Positions 35,399 through 42,165 of a DNA stretch of 64,000 bases are shown piece by piece. This DNA is from Streptomyces candidus (GTDB lineage Bacteria > Actinomycetota > Actinomycetes > Streptomycetales > Streptomycetaceae). Each line of letters starts with the position of its first letter. The stretch's first letter is position 1. The notes under the pieces were generated by a model. That model was not told the origin of the DNA and made no database searches. It worked only from the letters and a program-made list of their open reading frames with translations. The position numbers and the translations under genes were made by a program. Location: contig NZ_JACHEM010000005.1 in assembly GCF_014207445.1 (NCBI RefSeq), positions 310,001 to 374,000 on the forward strand, read 5' to 3'.

Positions 35399-36082
35399 CT
35401 ACAGCGCGCGCAGGACGGCGGTGACCTTGCCGAGGATGGTGGCCTCGTTGCCCCGGATCGGGGCGAAGCGCTCGTTCTCCGGGAGCAGCCACACGTCGGA
35501 CCCCTGGCGCTTGAAGCGCTTGACGGTGGCGTCGCCGTCGATCATCGCGGCGACGATGTCACCGTTGCTGGCCTCGGGCTGGGCGCGGACGACGACCTGG
35601 TCGCCGTCCGCGATGTGCGCGTCGATCATGGATTCACCGACGACGGTCAGGACGAACAGGTCGCCCTCGCCGACCAGTTGGCGCGGCAGCGGCAGTACGT
35701 CCTCCACGTGCTGTTCGGCCAGGATGGGTGTGCCGGCGGCGATGCGGCCGACGAGCGGCACGTACGCGGTACCGGGGGAGGGCGGGCCGTCGTTGGGGGT
35801 GGTGCCGTGGTGGCGGTCGGCGCGGATGCGGTAGGCGCGCGGGCGGCACGGGTCGCGTTCCAGGATTCCCTTGCGCTCCAGCGCGGACAGCTGGTGGGCG
35901 ACGGAGGAGGTGGAGGCGAGGCCGGCCGCCTGGCCGATCTCGCGCATGGACGGCGGATAGCCGCGCTCGGTGACGTGCCGGCGGATGGTCGCGACGATCT
36001 TGGCCTGGCGGTCGGTGAGCCCGTCGGCACGGGTGCGGATGCCGGCGGGCCGTCCGGGCCCGGCGGTGGTCGTCGTGCGCAT
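35399..36082 (-). CDS. lexA: LexA repressor of the SOS response
   Basis: A 227-residue LexA. The N-terminal winged helix includes [20 protein letters not shown] and [20 protein letters not shown]. The self-cleavage site Ala-Gly is in VGRIAAGTP; the catalytic dyad is Ser in [11 protein letters not shown] and Lys in [10 protein letters not shown]. It represses damage-inducible genes by binding GAAC-type boxes until RecA triggers autocleavage. ATG 36082 has GGGGAG about 5 bases upstream. It is divergent from the dnaE2 operon, whose promoter region carries a LexA-like box. Confidence 0.97.
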
Positions 36083-36259: not shown

Positions 36260-36275
36260 TCGTACATACGTTCGA
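36260..36275. promoter_or_regulatory. LexA (SOS) box upstream of dnaE2
   Basis: TCGTACATACGTTCGA matches the actinobacterial SOS consensus CGAAC-N4-GTTCG with one mismatch in the left arm (CGTAC). It lies about 55 bases before the dnaE2 ATG and is the only such site in the DNA nearby, so damage-inducible transcription of the operon is likely. Confidence 0.75.
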
Positions 36276-36330
36276 TAAATGGATCGGGCGGAGACGAGGC
36301 GAGCGGAGGGGTGGAGATGGGTGGCAGGTC

Positions 36331-39300
36331 ATGGCCGGTTTTACCCACCTGCATGCCGCCTCCGGGTTCTCGGCCCGCTACGGCGCCGCCCACCCCGAAG
36401 CGCTGGTCCGTGCGGCTGCCGACCGCGGTATGGGTGCCCTGGCGCTGACCGACCGCGACACCGTCACCGGCGCGGTGCGCTTCGCCAAAGCCGCGGCCGC
36501 GTCCGGGGTGCGCCCGCTGTTCGGTGTCGACGTCGCCGTACAGCCCCACACCCCCGCCACCCGTGGCTCCGGGCCCCGGCGCCGTACGCCGGTGCGCGGC
36601 GGCGCGCACGTGGCCGAGGCCCCGCTGCGCATCACCCTGCTCGCGCGGAACGCCGGCGGGTGGGCCCGGCTGTGCCGCCTGGTGTCGGCCGCGCACGCCC
36701 TCCCCAGTGGTCCGCCGGTGGTCACGCACGAGGCGTTCGCCGAACACGGTGTCGGGGGCCTGGTGGCGTTGTTCGGCCCGGTCTCGGAGCCGGTGCGTGC
36801 GCTGTCGGGCGGGCGTCCGGACCGGGCGCAGCAGTTGCTTGCCCCGTGGCGGGCACTGTTCGGCGCGAACCTGCGCCTGGAGGTCCTGTCGTACGGGGTA
36901 CAGGGCACCGGGCCCGGTTCGGTGCGCCTGGCGGCTCGTACGGTGCAGCTCGCCGACCACCTCCGGGTACCCGCCGTGCTGACCAATGCGGCCCGGTACG
37001 CCGATCCCGCCCAGCACCGGCTCGCCGATGTCCTGGACGCTGCCCGGCTGCTGCGGCCCATCGACCGGCGCCGCCTGGATACGGGGGAGCGGTGGCTCAA
37101 GGGCTCCGCCGACATGGCCGCCATCGCTGCCCGGATCGCCGAGGCGGCAGGCGAGGGCGCCGAGCGGGCGGACCGGCTGCTGGCAGAGACCGCCGCGGTC
37201 GCCGACAGCTGTGCCCTGGACCCGGTCGCCGACCTGGGGCTCGGCAAGCCGCATTTCCCCGAGCCCCAGGTGGTCGGCGCCGGCACCGGGCCGGGTGCGG
37301 CGGCCGCGCTGCTGCGCGAGCGCGCGGAAGCCGGTCTCGCCCGCCGGGGCCTCGACCGCGTCCCGGCCGCGGTGGAGCGTCTTGCGGAGGAGCTGCGGGT
37401 CATCACCAAGCTGGGCTTCGAGCCCTACTTCCTTGCCGTCGCCCAAGTCGTCGCGGACGTGCGGGAGATGGGAATCCGGGTCGCCGCCCGCGGCTCCGGT
37501 GCGGGGTCGATGGCCTGCCATGCCCTGCACCTCGCCACCGCCAACCCCCTCGAACACAACCTGCTCTTCGAACGGTTCCTCTCCGAGCGGCGCACCTCGC
37601 TGCCCGACATCGACGTCGACGTGGAGTCCGCCCGCCGCCTGGAGGTCTACGACCGCATCTTCGAACGCTTCGGCCCCGAGCGGGTCGCGGTCACCGGCAT
37701 GCCCGAGACCTACCGCGCCCGCCACGCCCTCCGCGACACCGGCCTCGCCCTGGGGATCGCCCCGCAACAGGTCGACCGGATCGCCAAGTCCTTCCCTCAC
37801 ATCCGCGCCTGCGACATCACCGGCGCCCTCGCGGAACTCCCCGAGCTGCGTGAATTGCGGGAGGAGGCGGCGTCGGGCCGGTTCGGGCCGCTCTTCGACG
37901 TCGCGGAGGGCCTGGACAGGCTGCCGCGCGGCATGGCCATGCACCCCTGCGGCGTCATCATCACCGACGCCACCCTGCTGGACCGGCTCCCCGTCCAGCC
38001 GACCCCGGGCGGGCAGTACCCGATGGTCCAGGCCGACAAGCACGACGTCGAAGACCTCGGCCTGATCAAGCTGGACGTCCTCGGCGTGCGGATGCAGTCC
38101 TCCATGGCCCACGCCGTGAACGAGATCGCCCGCACCACCGGCCGCCGCATCGACCTCGACGACCCCGCCCAGGTGCCCCTGGACGACTTCTTCGCGTTCA
38201 AGATGATCCAGGCCTCCGACACCGTCGGCATGTTCCAGCTCGAATCACCCGGCCAGCAGGACCTCCTGGGCCGGCTCCAGCCCCGCGACCCGCAGGACGT
38301 CATCGCCGACATCAGCCTCTTCCGCCCCGGCCCGATGGCCGGCGGCATGCCCGCCGCCTACATCGCCGCCCGCCACGGCGCCGCCCCCGCATACCCCCAC
38401 CCCGACCTCGAACCCGTCCTCGCCGACACCTACGGCGTCACGATCTGGCACGAGCAGGTCATCGACATGTTCGCCGTACTGACCGGCTGCGACCGCGCCC
38501 TGGCCGAAATCGCCCGCCGCGCCCTCGTCGACAAGAACCGGCTTCCCCACGTCCGCACCTGGTTCTTCGACCGAGCGAGCGAGAACGGCTACGCCCGCGG
38601 AGTGCTGGAGGAGGTGTGGGCGGTGATCGAGGGGTTCGGCGCGTACGGGTTCTGCCGCGCCCACGCGGTCGCCTTCGCCGTCCCCGCCCTCCAGTCCGCC
38701 TGGCTCAAGGCCCACTACCCCGCCGCCCTCTACGCCGGACTCCTGGAGCACGACCCGGGGATGTGGCCGATGCGGGTCATCGTCTCGGACGCCCGCCGCC
38801 ACAACGTCCCCGTCCTCAACGTGGACATCAACCGCTCCGCAGCCGCCCACCAGCTGGAGCAGGTCGCCGACGGCACCTGGGGGGTACGGATGTCGCTGTC
38901 GTCGGTGAAGGGGATCACCGAGGACGACGTCCACCGCATCGTCGCCGGGCAGCCCTACGCGGGGCTCCCCGATCTGTGGGAGCGTGCCCGCCCCGCCCGC
39001 CCCACCACGGAACGCCTCGTGGAGGTCGGCGCGCTGGACAGCGTGCGCGGATCCCAGTCCCGACGCGACCTGCTGCTCCAGGTCGGCGAGCTCCACCACC
39101 AGACCCGCACCCGGCAGGCCGAAGGCCAGCTCCCCCTCGACGGCCTGACCACGGCCACCGATCCCTCCGGGCTGCCGGAGATGACCGCCCGCGAGGCCCT
39201 CGGCGCCGAGCTGGAGGTCCTCAAGGTCGACGTCACCCAGCACCTGATGGACCACCACCACCGCCTCCTGCGCGAAGTCGGCGCCACCGACGCCGCCCAT

Positions 39301-39780
39301 CTCAAGGCATTGCGCACCGGCCAACACGTCCTCGTCGCCGGGGTCCGCGCCTCGACCCAGACACCGCCCATCCCCTCCGGCAAGCGCATCATCTTCGTCA
39401 CCCTCGAAGACGGCTCCGGCCTCGTCGACCTCGCCTTCTTCGAGGACTCCCACGAGGCCTGCGCCCATACCGTCTTCCACTCCGGGCTCCTCCTCGTACG
39501 CGGCACCATTCAGGAACGCGGACCACGGCGCACCGTGGTCGGCTCGATGGTCTGGGACCTCGACACCCTCGCCGACGCCCGCCGCGACGGCGGCCCCGAG
39601 GCCGTCCTCCACCTCCTCGGCCGCCGGGGGACCAGCCCCACCCCCGCCCAGCCGCACCGCACCCTTCCCAACGGCACCGCCGGCGCGCGCCTCCACCCCT
39701 GGGCGGACCTCCAGCCCGCCGGCACCCGCTCCGCAGACCTGACCGCCTACGGCCACCGCAGCCCCGGGAGCCCAGGATGA
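36331..39780 (+). CDS. dnaE2: Error-prone DNA polymerase DnaE2 (C-family)
   Basis: A 1149-residue C-family polymerase of the DnaE2/ImuC type. The PHP domain starts FTHLHAASGFSARYG and FGVDVAV. Palm catalytic aspartates are in TSLPDIDVDVE. The finger region has MQSSMAHAVNEI and the loop with LFRPGPMAGGMP. A helix-hairpin-helix and an OB domain (HVLVAGVRASTQTPPIPSGK, VTLEDGSGLVDLAFF) end the protein. It performs damage-induced mutagenic bypass. ATG 36331 was chosen because the PHP homology starts there. Stop and next start overlap (ATGA), so it is coupled to the Y-family-like gene. Confidence 0.96.
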   Translation: MAGFTHLHAASGFSARYGAAHPEALVRAAADRGMGALALTDRDTVTGAVRFAKAAAASGVRPLFGVDVAVQPHTPATRGSGPRRRTPVRGGAHVAEAPLRITLLARNAGGWARLCRLVSAAHALPSGPPVVTHEAFAEHGVGGLVALFGPVSEPVRALSGGRPDRAQQLLAPWRALFGANLRLEVLSYGVQGTGPGSVRLAARTVQLADHLRVPAVLTNAARYADPAQHRLADVLDAARLLRPIDRRRLDTGERWLKGSADMAAIAARIAEAAGEGAERADRLLAETAAVADSCALDPVADLGLGKPHFPEPQVVGAGTGPGAAAALLRERAEAGLARRGLDRVPAAVERLAEELRVITKLGFEPYFLAVAQVVADVREMGIRVAARGSGAGSMACHALHLATANPLEHNLLFERFLSERRTSLPDIDVDVESARRLEVYDRIFERFGPERVAVTGMPETYRARHALRDTGLALGIAPQQVDRIAKSFPHIRACDITGALAELPELRELREEAASGRFGPLFDVAEGLDRLPRGMAMHPCGVIITDATLLDRLPVQPTPGGQYPMVQADKHDVEDLGLIKLDVLGVRMQSSMAHAVNEIARTTGRRIDLDDPAQVPLDDFFAFKMIQASDTVGMFQLESPGQQDLLGRLQPRDPQDVIADISLFRPGPMAGGMPAAYIAARHGAAPAYPHPDLEPVLADTYGVTIWHEQVIDMFAVLTGCDRALAEIARRALVDKNRLPHVRTWFFDRASENGYARGVLEEVWAVIEGFGAYGFCRAHAVAFAVPALQSAWLKAHYPAALYAGLLEHDPGMWPMRVIVSDARRHNVPVLNVDINRSAAAHQLEQVADGTWGVRMSLSSVKGITEDDVHRIVAGQPYAGLPDLWERARPARPTTERLVEVGALDSVRGSQSRRDLLLQVGELHHQTRTRQAEGQLPLDGLTTATDPSGLPEMTAREALGAELEVLKVDVTQHLMDHHHRLLREVGATDAAHLKALRTGQHVLVAGVRASTQTPPIPSGKRIIFVTLEDGSGLVDLAFFEDSHEACAHTVFHSGLLLVRGTIQERGPRRTVVGSMVWDLDTLADARRDGGPEAVLHLLGRRGTSPTPAQPHRTLPNGTAGARLHPWADLQPAGTRSADLTAYGHRSPGSPG

Positions 39781-40841
39781 CCACCACGACGACTGCCGTC
39801 CGCGAACGGCACATCCTGCGCGTCCACTTCCACCTGGCCACCGAGGACCCCGACCTCTACGACGCACTCCTCGATGTCCTGACCACCCTCACCCCGCTCG
39901 TCCAGCGGCTCCCTCCGTCGGCCGCCGACCTCGACGTGACCGGCTCGTTGCGGCTGTTCGACTGCGACGCGGCCGCCTTGGGCCGACTGCTGCAGGTCAG
40001 GGTGATGGCCCTGCACGGCGTGACCACCAGCATCGGCGCGGCACCCAACCGGATGCTCGCCGCCATGGCCGCCGACGCCACCCCGCCAGGCGACCTCACC
40101 ACCCTCCCCGCCGAACCCGACGCCCTCACCCGCTTCCTGCGCCCGCGCCCGGTCGCCGCCCTGCCGGGCATCGGCCCGGCAACCGCCCGCACCTTGAACA
40201 AGCACGGCATCCACCACCTCGGCACCCTCGCCGACACCCCCCTCCTCACCCTCCAACGCCTCCTGGGCACCGCCCAAGGACGCCAGCTCCACGAACGCGC
40301 CCACGGCCAGGACCCGCGCCCCGTCACCGTCCAGGCCCCCGCCCCGTCCCTCAGCGCCACCCACCCGTACGACCACGACGAACTCGACCCCGCCGCCCAC
40401 CGGAGGACGTTGCTGGCCCTGACCGAAGACCTCGGGCTGCGCCTGCGCACCACCGGGCAGATCGCCACGACCCTCGTTCTGACCGTGCGCTACGCCGACC
40501 GCACGACCACCACCCGCAGCCGCACCCTCACCGAACCCACCCACCACAGCCCGGCCCTCGCCGCCGCCGCCCACGACCTCTACACCCGCCTGGGACTCCA
40601 ACGCGCCCGCGTCCGCGCCCTCACCCTCCGCGCAGAGGGCCTGCTCACGGCACAGGACGCAACCCGCCAACTGTCACTGGACCCGGACGACGACCGGACC
40701 CGCGCGGCGGAGGCCGCCGCCGACCGCGTCCGCGCCCGCTTCGGACCCACCGCCGCAGTACCCGCCGCACTGGCACGACCCGACCGCACCACGTCGCCCC
40801 GCCTACGGGCCGACGCCAGGAAAAAGGAGCAACGGAGATGA
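39777..40841 (+). CDS. Y-family polymerase-like protein lacking catalytic residues (ImuB-like)
   Basis: A 354-residue DinB/UmuC-fold protein. It begins HILRVHFHLATEDP, where an active Pol IV has the first catalytic Asp. The second site is PPSAADLDVTG, where I-D-E-A-F-L-D-V would carry the catalytic Asp-Glu. Only about 37 residues separate these, against about 95 in Pol IV, so the finger domain is largely missing. The thumb helix-hairpin-helix (ALPGIGPATARTLNKHGIHH) and the little finger domain are intact. It is therefore probably a non-catalytic scaffold like mycobacterial ImuB, coupling DnaE2 to the replication clamp. ATGA overlaps at both ends support tight coupling. Confidence 0.8.
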   Translation: MTTTTTAVRERHILRVHFHLATEDPDLYDALLDVLTTLTPLVQRLPPSAADLDVTGSLRLFDCDAAALGRLLQVRVMALHGVTTSIGAAPNRMLAAMAADATPPGDLTTLPAEPDALTRFLRPRPVAALPGIGPATARTLNKHGIHHLGTLADTPLLTLQRLLGTAQGRQLHERAHGQDPRPVTVQAPAPSLSATHPYDHDELDPAAHRRTLLALTEDLGLRLRTTGQIATTLVLTVRYADRTTTTRSRTLTEPTHHSPALAAAAHDLYTRLGLQRARVRALTLRAEGLLTAQDATRQLSLDPDDDRTRAAEAAADRVRARFGPTAAVPAALARPDRTTSPRLRADARKKEQRR

Positions 40842-41092
40842 GCAGAAGCCGCATCCGTGCGCATACCCTCCCGCACGCCCGCCACGACGGTGCCACCTAC
40901 GGCACCCGCTACGAGGCGGAGTTCGCCGCCCTCGCAGCCTCCCACCGGGGCCGCCCCACCACTGACATCGTGCCGCTGCTGCGCCGTGCGGCCGACCGGG
41001 CGCTGTTGGGCTTCGCGCCCGCCGATCTCCAGGAGCAGGCACAGGCCATCAGCTCCGGCGCCCCCTGCCGGCTGCGCATCACTCTCCCGTGA
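40838..41092 (+). CDS. Small third protein of the dnaE2 operon, unknown function
   Basis: An 84-residue protein starting MSRSRIRAHTLPHARHDGAT, with a helix-rich middle (YEAEFAALAASHRGR, IVPLLRRAADRALLGFAPAD). It is translationally coupled to the Y-family-like gene (ATGA 40838-40841) and ends at a hexamer repeat array. No family recognised. Constant coupling in a mutasome operon suggests an accessory or regulatory role; it is not an ImuA-type RecA-like protein, being far too short. Confidence 0.65.
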   Translation: MSRSRIRAHTLPHARHDGATYGTRYEAEFAALAASHRGRPTTDIVPLLRRAADRALLGFAPADLQEQAQAISSGAPCRLRITLP

Positions 41093-41136
41093 CCGTGACC
41101 GTGACCGTGACCGGGACCGTGACCGTGACCGGGACC
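41091..41136. repeat. GACCGT/GACCGG hexamer array at the operon end
   Basis: About 7.7 copies of GACCGT with two GACCGG variants start within the stop codon of the 84-residue protein gene (TGA 41090-41092). It may be a slippage hotspot. No coding role is needed, since the array lies after the stop. Confidence 0.85.
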
Positions 41137-41205
41137 AGCCCACCCGCCTTGCAGGAGGGGCACCCGTAGACCCGTAGCGGCGCAGCCCCTCGCCGGGGCC
41201 GGGCG

Positions 41206-42165
41206 TCACAGGTGCTCGGGGGCCAGGTCCGGCCGCAGGCGGTGCCAGACCGGCTGGCGCAAAAGGCCGGCGCGGGTGCGGGTGGCGTAACGGACCTCCC
41301 CGACCAGGCGCGGCAGGACCCAGCGGGCCGCGGGCACGGGCGGGAGCGTGGTGAAGGGGCAGTCGTCGACGGCGGCGACCGTCAGCAGGCGCGCCAGTTC
41401 GGCGCGCTCGCGTTCCGACCAGCCGGTGCCCACGCTCCCCGCGTACCGCAGCCCGCCGTCCTCCAGGCGTTCCCCGACCAGCACCGCGCCCGGCAGTGGT
41501 GAGGCGGAGCCCCGTACCGGCACCCAGCCGCCGATCATGCAGTCCGCGGTCCGCAGGTGCCGCAGCTTGATCCACGCACGGGAGCGGACACCGGGCTCGT
41601 ACCGTGAGTCGGTCCGTTTGAGGACGACCCCTTCCAGGCCGTGTTCGCGGGTCAGCGCGAAGGCCTCCCGGGCGTGCCCGGTCACCGCGGCCGGAGTCGA
41701 CCAGTGGGCCGCGTGCAGGGCGAGCGCCTCCAGGAGCCGGCGTCGCTCGGCATGGGGGAGGTGGGTCAGGTCGCGGCCGTCCAGGTGCAGGGCGTCGAAG
41801 AGGACCAGGTGTGCGGGGATCCGGGCGGCGAGGCGGGCCGCCTTCGCCGGAGCTGCGGACAGGCCCATACGGGACTGCAGGCGCTCGAAGTCCGGACGGC
41901 CCTGCTCGTCGAGGGCGATGAGCTCGCCGTCCAGCACCGCCGGCACTCCACCCAGTGCCCCGCCCAGGGGGCGGAGTTCGGGATACGCGGCCGTGACCGC
42001 GGCCCCCGAGCGGGAGCGCAGCACCAGCGTGCCGTCGCCCGGCAGGTACACCACCGCACGCTGCCCGTCGTACTTGGTCTCCGCACTCCACAGATGCTCC
42101 GCGGACGGGGCGGGAAGCGTACCGGGGGTGGCGAGCATCGGGGCGATCCGCGGCAGGGTGACCAT
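41206..42165 (-). CDS. ATP-dependent DNA ligase
   Basis: A 319-residue adenylation-plus-OB-domain ligase of the small LigC type. Motif I with the adenylated Lys is ETKYDGQRA; motif IV is GLEGVVLKR; the DGELIALDEQG and WIKLR motifs are also clear. No nuclease or polymerase (LigD-type) domains. Likely role in repair or end joining. It faces the mutasome operon convergently across the hexamer array. ATG 42165 follows a Gly/Trp-rich upstream frame that is not family-like. Confidence 0.93.
   Translation of the reverse strand: MVTLPRIAPMLATPGTLPAPSAEHLWSAETKYDGQRAVVYLPGDGTLVLRSRSGAAVTAAYPELRPLGGALGGVPAVLDGELIALDEQGRPDFERLQSRMGLSAAPAKAARLAARIPAHLVLFDALHLDGRDLTHLPHAERRRLLEALALHAAHWSTPAAVTGHAREAFALTREHGLEGVVLKRTDSRYEPGVRSRAWIKLRHLRTADCMIGGWVPVRGSASPLPGAVLVGERLEDGGLRYAGSVGTGWSERERAELARLLTVAAVDDCPFTTLPPVPAARWVLPRLVGEVRYATRTRAGLLRQPVWHRLRPDLAPEHL

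Follow-up and report, generated by a model that had tools for sequence, protein, structure and literature searches.

We report here a three-gene operon in a 64,000-nucleotide stretch of Streptomyces candidus DNA (assembly GCF_014207445.1, contig NZ_JACHEM010000005.1, positions 310,001 to 374,000; hereafter "the window"), in which dnaE2, a gene for a truncated Y-family protein (iPolY) and a gene for a protein of 84 amino acids (aa) follow one another behind a near-consensus LexA box. We read this locus as an SOS translesion operon that has captured a small damage-response protein, which would act there as an accessory, perhaps by binding iPolY or a DNA-bound complex, and place the probability of this reading at roughly 0.64. 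Its parts differ in strength: on sequence grounds, the operon very probably is LexA-controlled and yields an error-prone DnaE2 together with an iPolY that serves as a non-catalytic tether; the small protein is likely a damage-response protein recruited from its usual promoter into the LexA-boxed iPolY operons of this strain; and a role as accessory of iPolY or DnaE2 is our leading guess among what we infer of its expression, binding and function. The operon comprises the following features.

36260-36275: LexA box TCGTACATACGTTCGA, 55 bp ahead of the dnaE2 ATG, one mismatch to TCGAACN4GTTCGA
36331..39780, plus strand: dnaE2, error-prone DNA polymerase III alpha, 1149 aa (Pfam/NCBIfam)
39777..40841, plus strand: iPolY, scDinB2-like truncated Y-family protein, 354 aa (Pfam IMS only from profile position 77)
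40668..40682, plus strand: QLSLD motif in iPolY
40692..40760, plus strand: RecA N-terminus (RecA-NT)-like motif in iPolY, in-register alignment with the N-terminus of this strain's RecA
40838..41092, plus strand: small protein, 84 aa, of a plasmid and subtelomere family (homologues and alignments)

The original prediction, made from the letters of this DNA, had described an SOS-controlled, mutasome-like operon without ImuA, with a near-consensus LexA box ahead of dnaE2, ATGA overlaps chaining the three genes and a divergent lexA, and this architecture held. The box departs from TCGAACN4GTTCGA at one position, both junctions are 4-nt overlaps in the list of open reading frames (ORFs), the lexA gene lies on the minus strand and passes the LexA equivalog cut-off, and SOS control finds support at related loci and in published S. 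venezuelae data (PMC9380542). Specifically, TCGTACATACGTTCGA is not a perfect GAACN4GTTC and is the sole site with at most two mismatches to TCGAACN4GTTCGA in the 64-kb window, where chance predicts 2.25 such sites (i.e., two-mismatch sites are common); for at most one mismatch the chance expectation is 0.1 per 64 kb and 0.0011 per 248-bp intergenic stretch. By this near-consensus box in its promoter region the operon is assigned to the LexA regulon, and the box may also serve the divergent lexA2. Among the related dnaE2 loci fetched, 18/19 have a LexA box 5' of the gene (14 with one mismatch, 4 with two), and at the lone exception (L110) dnaE2 is broken, iPolY missing and the box absent. For dnaE2-dinP of S. 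venezuelae, published passages report LexA binding and mitomycin induction, with mitomycin C raising dnaE2 ~31-fold and dinP ~14-fold; the dnaE2-1 box of that species (TCGTACGTACGTTC), to which the window box is close, is reported there as bound by LexA in vitro, less tightly than the dnaE2-2 site (PMC9380542).

The top NCBIfam model for the dnaE2 product is error-prone DNA polymerase, with a score under that model's cut-off. In alignment the protein has the motifs PDIDVD and KLDVLG, which we take to be catalytic Asp-type motifs. The match of iPolY to solved DinB-type polymerases begins at their residue 84-88, its N-terminal DxD region is missing, and it has PPSAA where the best-matching polymerase has SIDEA, so that both catalytic acidic sites are absent; the same catalytic parts are gone from 22 other iPolY sequences (19 from relatives' 20-kb stretches, 3 from plasmids). 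Presumably beta-clamp-binding-like is its QLSLD motif, of which QLSLD/QLTFD types occur in most of the iPolY alignment. The RecA-NT-like motif reaches a score against the own RecA N-terminus that 8 of 2000 shuffles attain, and its ...ADR.R.RFG... pattern is retained in most of the 22 other iPolYs, two of which (L104 and L117) seem frameshifted around the QLSLD/ADR region. Since iPolY lacks catalytic residues yet has a RecA-NT-like motif, the absence of ImuA is expected; neither ImuA nor ImuB was found among the operon genes, a result that covers the operon, as no genome-wide search was made.

We propose that LexA (the common copy and/or LexA2) would repress the operon from the box at 36260 and that DNA damage, with RecA, would lift this repression. 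DnaE2 and iPolY would then be made by coupled translation, and iPolY, unable to synthesise DNA, would most likely act as a tether joining DnaE2 to the sliding clamp and to RecA, the latter in place of ImuA; such a role has already been proposed for the Streptomyces DnaE2B-iPolY-RecA system. The small, probably helical protein comes from a Streptomyces family usually housed on linear plasmids and at chromosome ends, behind a damage promoter of RecA-NDp/PafBC type. In this strain its three gene copies instead stand, without that promoter, directly behind iPolY in LexA-boxed operons.

The evidence for this capture begins with gene position. Each of the three small-gene copies of this genome (one in the window, two on contig C17) lies directly behind iPolY, and all three junctions are readable as 4-nt overlaps, one of those on C17 if translation starts at an in-frame ATG that lies two codons ahead of the aligned start. 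One-mismatch LexA boxes stand ahead of both C17 pairs, and it is because of this threefold pairing and these boxes that we favour an SOS operon with a captured accessory. One C17 pair (L021) has its upstream region in common with a divergent Ku gene; the other (L017) is followed by one ORF and then by a third lexA. At the former (L021:11027-13583) the one-mismatch box TCGAACAAAGATTCGA (L021:12196) lies between Ku and the iPolY-small pair, which suggests SOS control of a plasmid-type Ku on C17.

The second part of the evidence concerns promoters. About 70 bp 5' of stand-alone small genes, the motif TGTCRG-N10-TAnnnT was found at 38/41 loci outside the own genome, against 0/41 for the reversed motif; since L027 and L083 represent a single locus, this count equals 37/40 distinct loci. 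The count excludes the fragmentary L097-L102, L028, and L125 and L127, of which the last two, examined separately, both have the motif (2/2). In the genus sample, which overlaps the 41 loci, it precedes the small gene in 13/14 other genomes. It is absent upstream of the window and C17 copies; within the window and C17 it matches once, at another place in L021. A stricter form has 26 matches in the own genome versus 0 for the reversed control (loci L129-L154). In our reading of the translations some of these precede recA, uvrB and rpsF, and four of ten further products examined with Pfam are repair-like (polA-type 5'-3' exonuclease, RecQ, DEAD-box helicase and PD-(D/E)XK nuclease). Several of the 26 motifs lie 6-10 bp ahead of the start codon, a spacing that would yield near-leaderless transcripts.

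RecA-NDp-type damage promoters were reportedly treated by Ahel in 2002 and Gamulin in 2004. The small-family motif resembles both the mycobacterial LexA-independent promoter, given as tTGTCRgtg-N8-TannnT in passages of PMC5656591, and the recA promoter of Streptomyces rimosus, which is ultraviolet (UV)-inducible as cited in PMC2375139. Published passages also report RecA-NDp promoters in Streptomyces, in part computationally ahead of repair genes (PMC2375139, PMC5087735), and UV induction of SCO6735, a gene with this promoter type (PMC5087735). An initial search reported in PMC9380542 found the M. smegmatis PafBC motif seemingly not conserved in S. venezuelae, and passages of that 2022 paper call the existence of a LexA-independent damage response in Streptomyces open; a looser form of our motif precedes two small genes of the S. 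venezuelae plasmid record. Because relatives have the RecA-NDp/PafBC-type promoter while the own copies follow iPolY in LexA-boxed operons, we favour capture by an SOS operon, and the contrast between motif and reversed motif, near the family and genome-wide, together with the published induction of SCO6735, is a further reason to do so.

The base pattern of the small ORF is coding-like (GC 0.72/0.61/0.87 at codon positions), and Pfam, NCBIfam and PHROGs gave no family match for the window protein. Relatives occur in 4/61 genomes of a first set and in 15/246 genomes of the genus sample (E 1e-6), the own genome included in both; a pattern-based scan in which each species was represented by one genome gave 37 loci, all titled Streptomyces, and 29/72,556 plasmid records have a relative, all Streptomyces by name or taxonomy line. 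Eight contigs that have a copy reach at least 6.9 Mb; on seven of them the copy is found 16-268 kb from an end, and the copy on the eighth, which is degenerate, is 1.45 Mb away from one. A 32-member alignment has a conserved core, relatives being 45-60% identical over the alignment, and the AlphaFold2 model has three helices (mean predicted local distance difference test score 73; first 18 residues unreliable); a sequence search of PDB reached E 0.34 at best. A phage protein was considered and rejected, as PHROGs gave nothing for the window protein and a chance-level match (E 0.19) for one relative, and a viral-contig scan for the family returned 35 pattern matches and 0 relatives. No description of the family or its promoter was found in the literature listings and passages searched.

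Several observations weigh against the reading of a captured accessory. With 90% identity between the two C17 small proteins and duplication of the ORFs next to them, the C17 pairs are not independent; as near-duplicates they imply one or two capture events, not three. The iPolY-small pairing was seen in this one genome only, with 0/22 at the other iPolY loci; this count comes mainly from tblastn (no small homologue in the 20-kb stretches; on three plasmids, homologues elsewhere), and a next-ORF check agrees with it but is less sensitive, having missed one known pair (C17, L017). Conversely, no intact iPolY lies near the 37 genome small-gene loci, up to 7 kb on each side, and an iPolY fragment lies near one of them (L071). 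The RecA-NT similarity is weak in the C17 iPolYs (105 and 183 of 2000 shuffles) and is not seen in the S. venezuelae plasmid iPolY (503/2000 shuffles). The published box most similar to that of the window, dnaE2-1, is a weaker LexA site (PMC9380542), and the damage-promoter motif also stands ahead of non-repair genes (e.g., a transporter and a PrsW protease). Lastly, the structure model is moderately confident and without a known-fold match (best PDB match E 0.9).

Of C17 itself we note that an iPolY-small pair, a 154-aa ORF and a ~1100-aa ORF lie near both ends of this 96-kb contig in opposite orientations, as an inverted duplication would give, probably a single one.

The rival that survives best, although we consider it appreciably less likely than capture of an accessory, is that the small gene is a passenger, i.e., a mobile, damage-inducible plasmid gene that came to stand behind iPolY by chance and has no translesion role. 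Its patchy occurrence in the genus sample, the 22/22 other iPolY genes without it and the resemblance of the two C17 copies to one duplication all fit such a passenger, as do its usual surroundings, where it stands alone or has Ku, lexA or an HNH nuclease gene as a neighbour. Among the 37 genome loci, Ku matches lie within 2 kb in ten (five of them partial or weak) and lexA directly 3' in one (L074). Ten of the 29 plasmid records were opened, chosen partly for suspected nearby lexA or dnaE2 so that neighbour counts are biased; three of these have lexA directly 3', three have Ku at a distance of up to 2 kb and three have dnaE2-iPolY at up to 5 kb. Against chance placement stand the 4-nt-overlap pairs at two dissimilar loci of the same genome (window and C17) and the identity to relatives that the protein keeps over the alignment. 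An HNH endonuclease family gene lies directly 5' of the small gene in 5/10 plasmid records (L064, L123, L124, L125, L127), and the N-terminus of the HNH protein resembles, by eye, a signal peptide.

A wider version of the accessory reading, which we regard as speculative, would have the small protein serve linear replicons as a damage-inducible accessory of both the translesion and the end-joining machinery (iPolY/DnaE2 and Ku), wired to RecA-NDp/PafBC when alone and to LexA when behind iPolY; in this strain it would have turned into a dedicated third member of the DnaE2-iPolY mutasome. Less probable still is that the whole locus is a maintenance island of chromosome ends or plasmids, in which lexA2, dnaE2-iPolY, the small protein and the ligase jointly repair or patch the ends of linear replicons. 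Such an island would suit the location of the small gene, which on 7/8 contigs of at least 6.9 Mb is no more than 270 kb from an end, and two plasmid islands that hold dnaE2-iPolY, Ku, ligase and small gene all within ~12 kb; translesion polymerases are also said, in work by Tsai from 2012, to take part in Streptomyces telomere replication. However, the window contig C5 (505 kb) may belong to the chromosome or to a plasmid, and chromosome ends may gather plasmid genes of many kinds. The original prediction had placed the small protein in ImuA's position, and that it is a true mutasome subunit replacing ImuA or ImuB-C is, despite its translationally coupled place in the operon and the absence of ImuA stated in passages of PMC12926913 for genomes with this DnaE2 type, highly improbable: it is last in the operon, has no family match and scores against the RecA N-terminus no better than 1191/2000 shuffles, which also tells against a mimic of RecA-NT, a RecA-NT-like motif is already present in iPolY, the family is mostly away from dnaE2, and a beta-structured domain with a conserved C-terminal Trp, as in ImuB-C, is contradicted by three predicted helices rather than a beta-barrel, no conserved Trp in 32 members and no Pfam match. 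The original prediction had named a lack of the small gene beside dnaE2 in related species as a refutation; since the gene is absent behind all 22 other iPolY genes examined, it is not a conserved mutasome subunit.

Other parts of the picture are already known, namely dnaE2-iPolY under LexA and RecA-NDp promoters in Streptomyces, and the novelty that the original prediction saw in an ImuA-less arrangement does not stand. DnaE2 with an inactive PolY was described in Streptomyces in 2019 (Timinskas & Venclovas, PMC6511836) and 2026 (PMC12926913), as a DnaE2B-iPolY-RecA system in which, according to published passages, scDinB2 is the iPolY and RecA is proposed to substitute for ImuA. Like that system, the window has dnaE2 followed by an inactive Y-family gene with a RecA-NT-like motif, and no ImuA or ImuB-C in the operon; unlike it, the window adds the 84-aa gene, a divergent extra lexA and a dnaE2 of a lineage that contains plasmid copies. 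With mycobacterial ImuA'-ImuB/DnaE2 and proteobacterial ImuA-ImuB-DnaE2 it shares a LexA box, DnaE2 and a non-catalytic Y-family partner, but it differs from both in the lack of ImuA and ImuB-C, in the order dnaE2-iPolY-small and in an iPolY without the N-terminal part of the IMS domain. The closest published likeness to the iPolY-small pair is the S. venezuelae plasmid pair pvnz_37140-pvnz_37135, with a LexA box and mitomycin induction in passages of PMC9380542, which we matched by box sequence to L062:11188-12434 (plasmid NZ_CP018075). It, too, joins a small gene to iPolY by a 4-nt overlap behind a LexA box, but its 83-aa protein sits 5' of iPolY and does not match the window's family; two window-family small genes, themselves 2-3 kb away, and a Ku gene lie 1-3 kb from it on NZ_CP018075. 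One example of a stand-alone small gene on the S. venezuelae plasmid is vnz_RS37585. Stand-alone small genes, with their TTGTCRGTG-N8-TAnnnT-like motif, are akin to genes with RecA-NDp/PafBC-type promoters in Actinomycetota, from which the window and C17 copies differ in lacking the motif and in their placement in iPolY operons.

The third gene of the operon is a lead to a family without a Pfam, NCBIfam or PHROGs match on Streptomyces linear plasmids and chromosome ends, which appears with one type of damage promoter when alone and, when coupled to iPolY, in operons with a LexA box. Were the small protein to act as an accessory to DnaE2-iPolY or Ku, it would reveal how plasmid damage-response parts pass between pathways, and the promoters of the family are possible reporters for a LexA-independent damage response in Streptomyces.

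By its sequence relations, the window dnaE2 belongs to a lineage that includes plasmid-borne copies. It is 69-73% identical to the copies in 8/36 same-genus relatives and 55-61% identical to the remaining copies there, with 4/36 relatives having no dnaE2 match at E 1e-150; plasmid-borne copies are 70-75% identical to it among the 60 matches listed, and 103/113 records fall at 60-80%. In a tree limited to Streptomyces-type copies and two own DnaE-type outgroups, it clusters (support 1.000) with L103-L110 and three copies from plasmids, and L111-L122 fall outside this group; the 20 stretches fetched from relatives were our selection among the matches. The two outgroup genes, C1:171027-174299 and C2:301139-304444, are each ~30% identical to the window dnaE2 and lie close to one another in the tree; they may encode two alpha subunits of replicative type within a single genome.

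Two further genes flank the operon.

35399..36082, minus strand: lexA2, additional LexA, 227 aa (LexA equivalog model)
41206..42165, minus strand: ATP-dependent DNA ligase, start inferred, convergent to the operon (Pfam DNA_ligase_A_M/C)

Three lexA matches occur in the own genome against one per genome (E 1e-30) in all 36 same-genus relatives, on which ground a conserved lexA-dnaE2 synteny in these relatives was rejected; the best matches of the window flanks lie, among those listed, at scattered places in the relatives. LexA2 is 66% identical to the copy at C2:70568 and retains in alignment the helix-turn-helix, the Ala-Gly cleavage site, Ser and Lys. The C2 gene is probably the common copy, because it hardly differs from the lexA of the single relative that was aligned. 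The third LexA (L017:10747-11439, on C17) is 47% identical to that of the window and, in alignment, has apparently lost the Ala-Gly site and has Arg for the catalytic Lys, so it is possibly non-cleavable.

The ligase scores 222.9 bits under a non-homologous end-joining ligase model with a cut-off of 227.75 bits, and a homologue 68% identical to it lies on C17. Between the two convergent transcription units, directly past the stop codon of the small gene, a short run of GTGACC/GGGACC hexamer repeats occupies 41093-41137.

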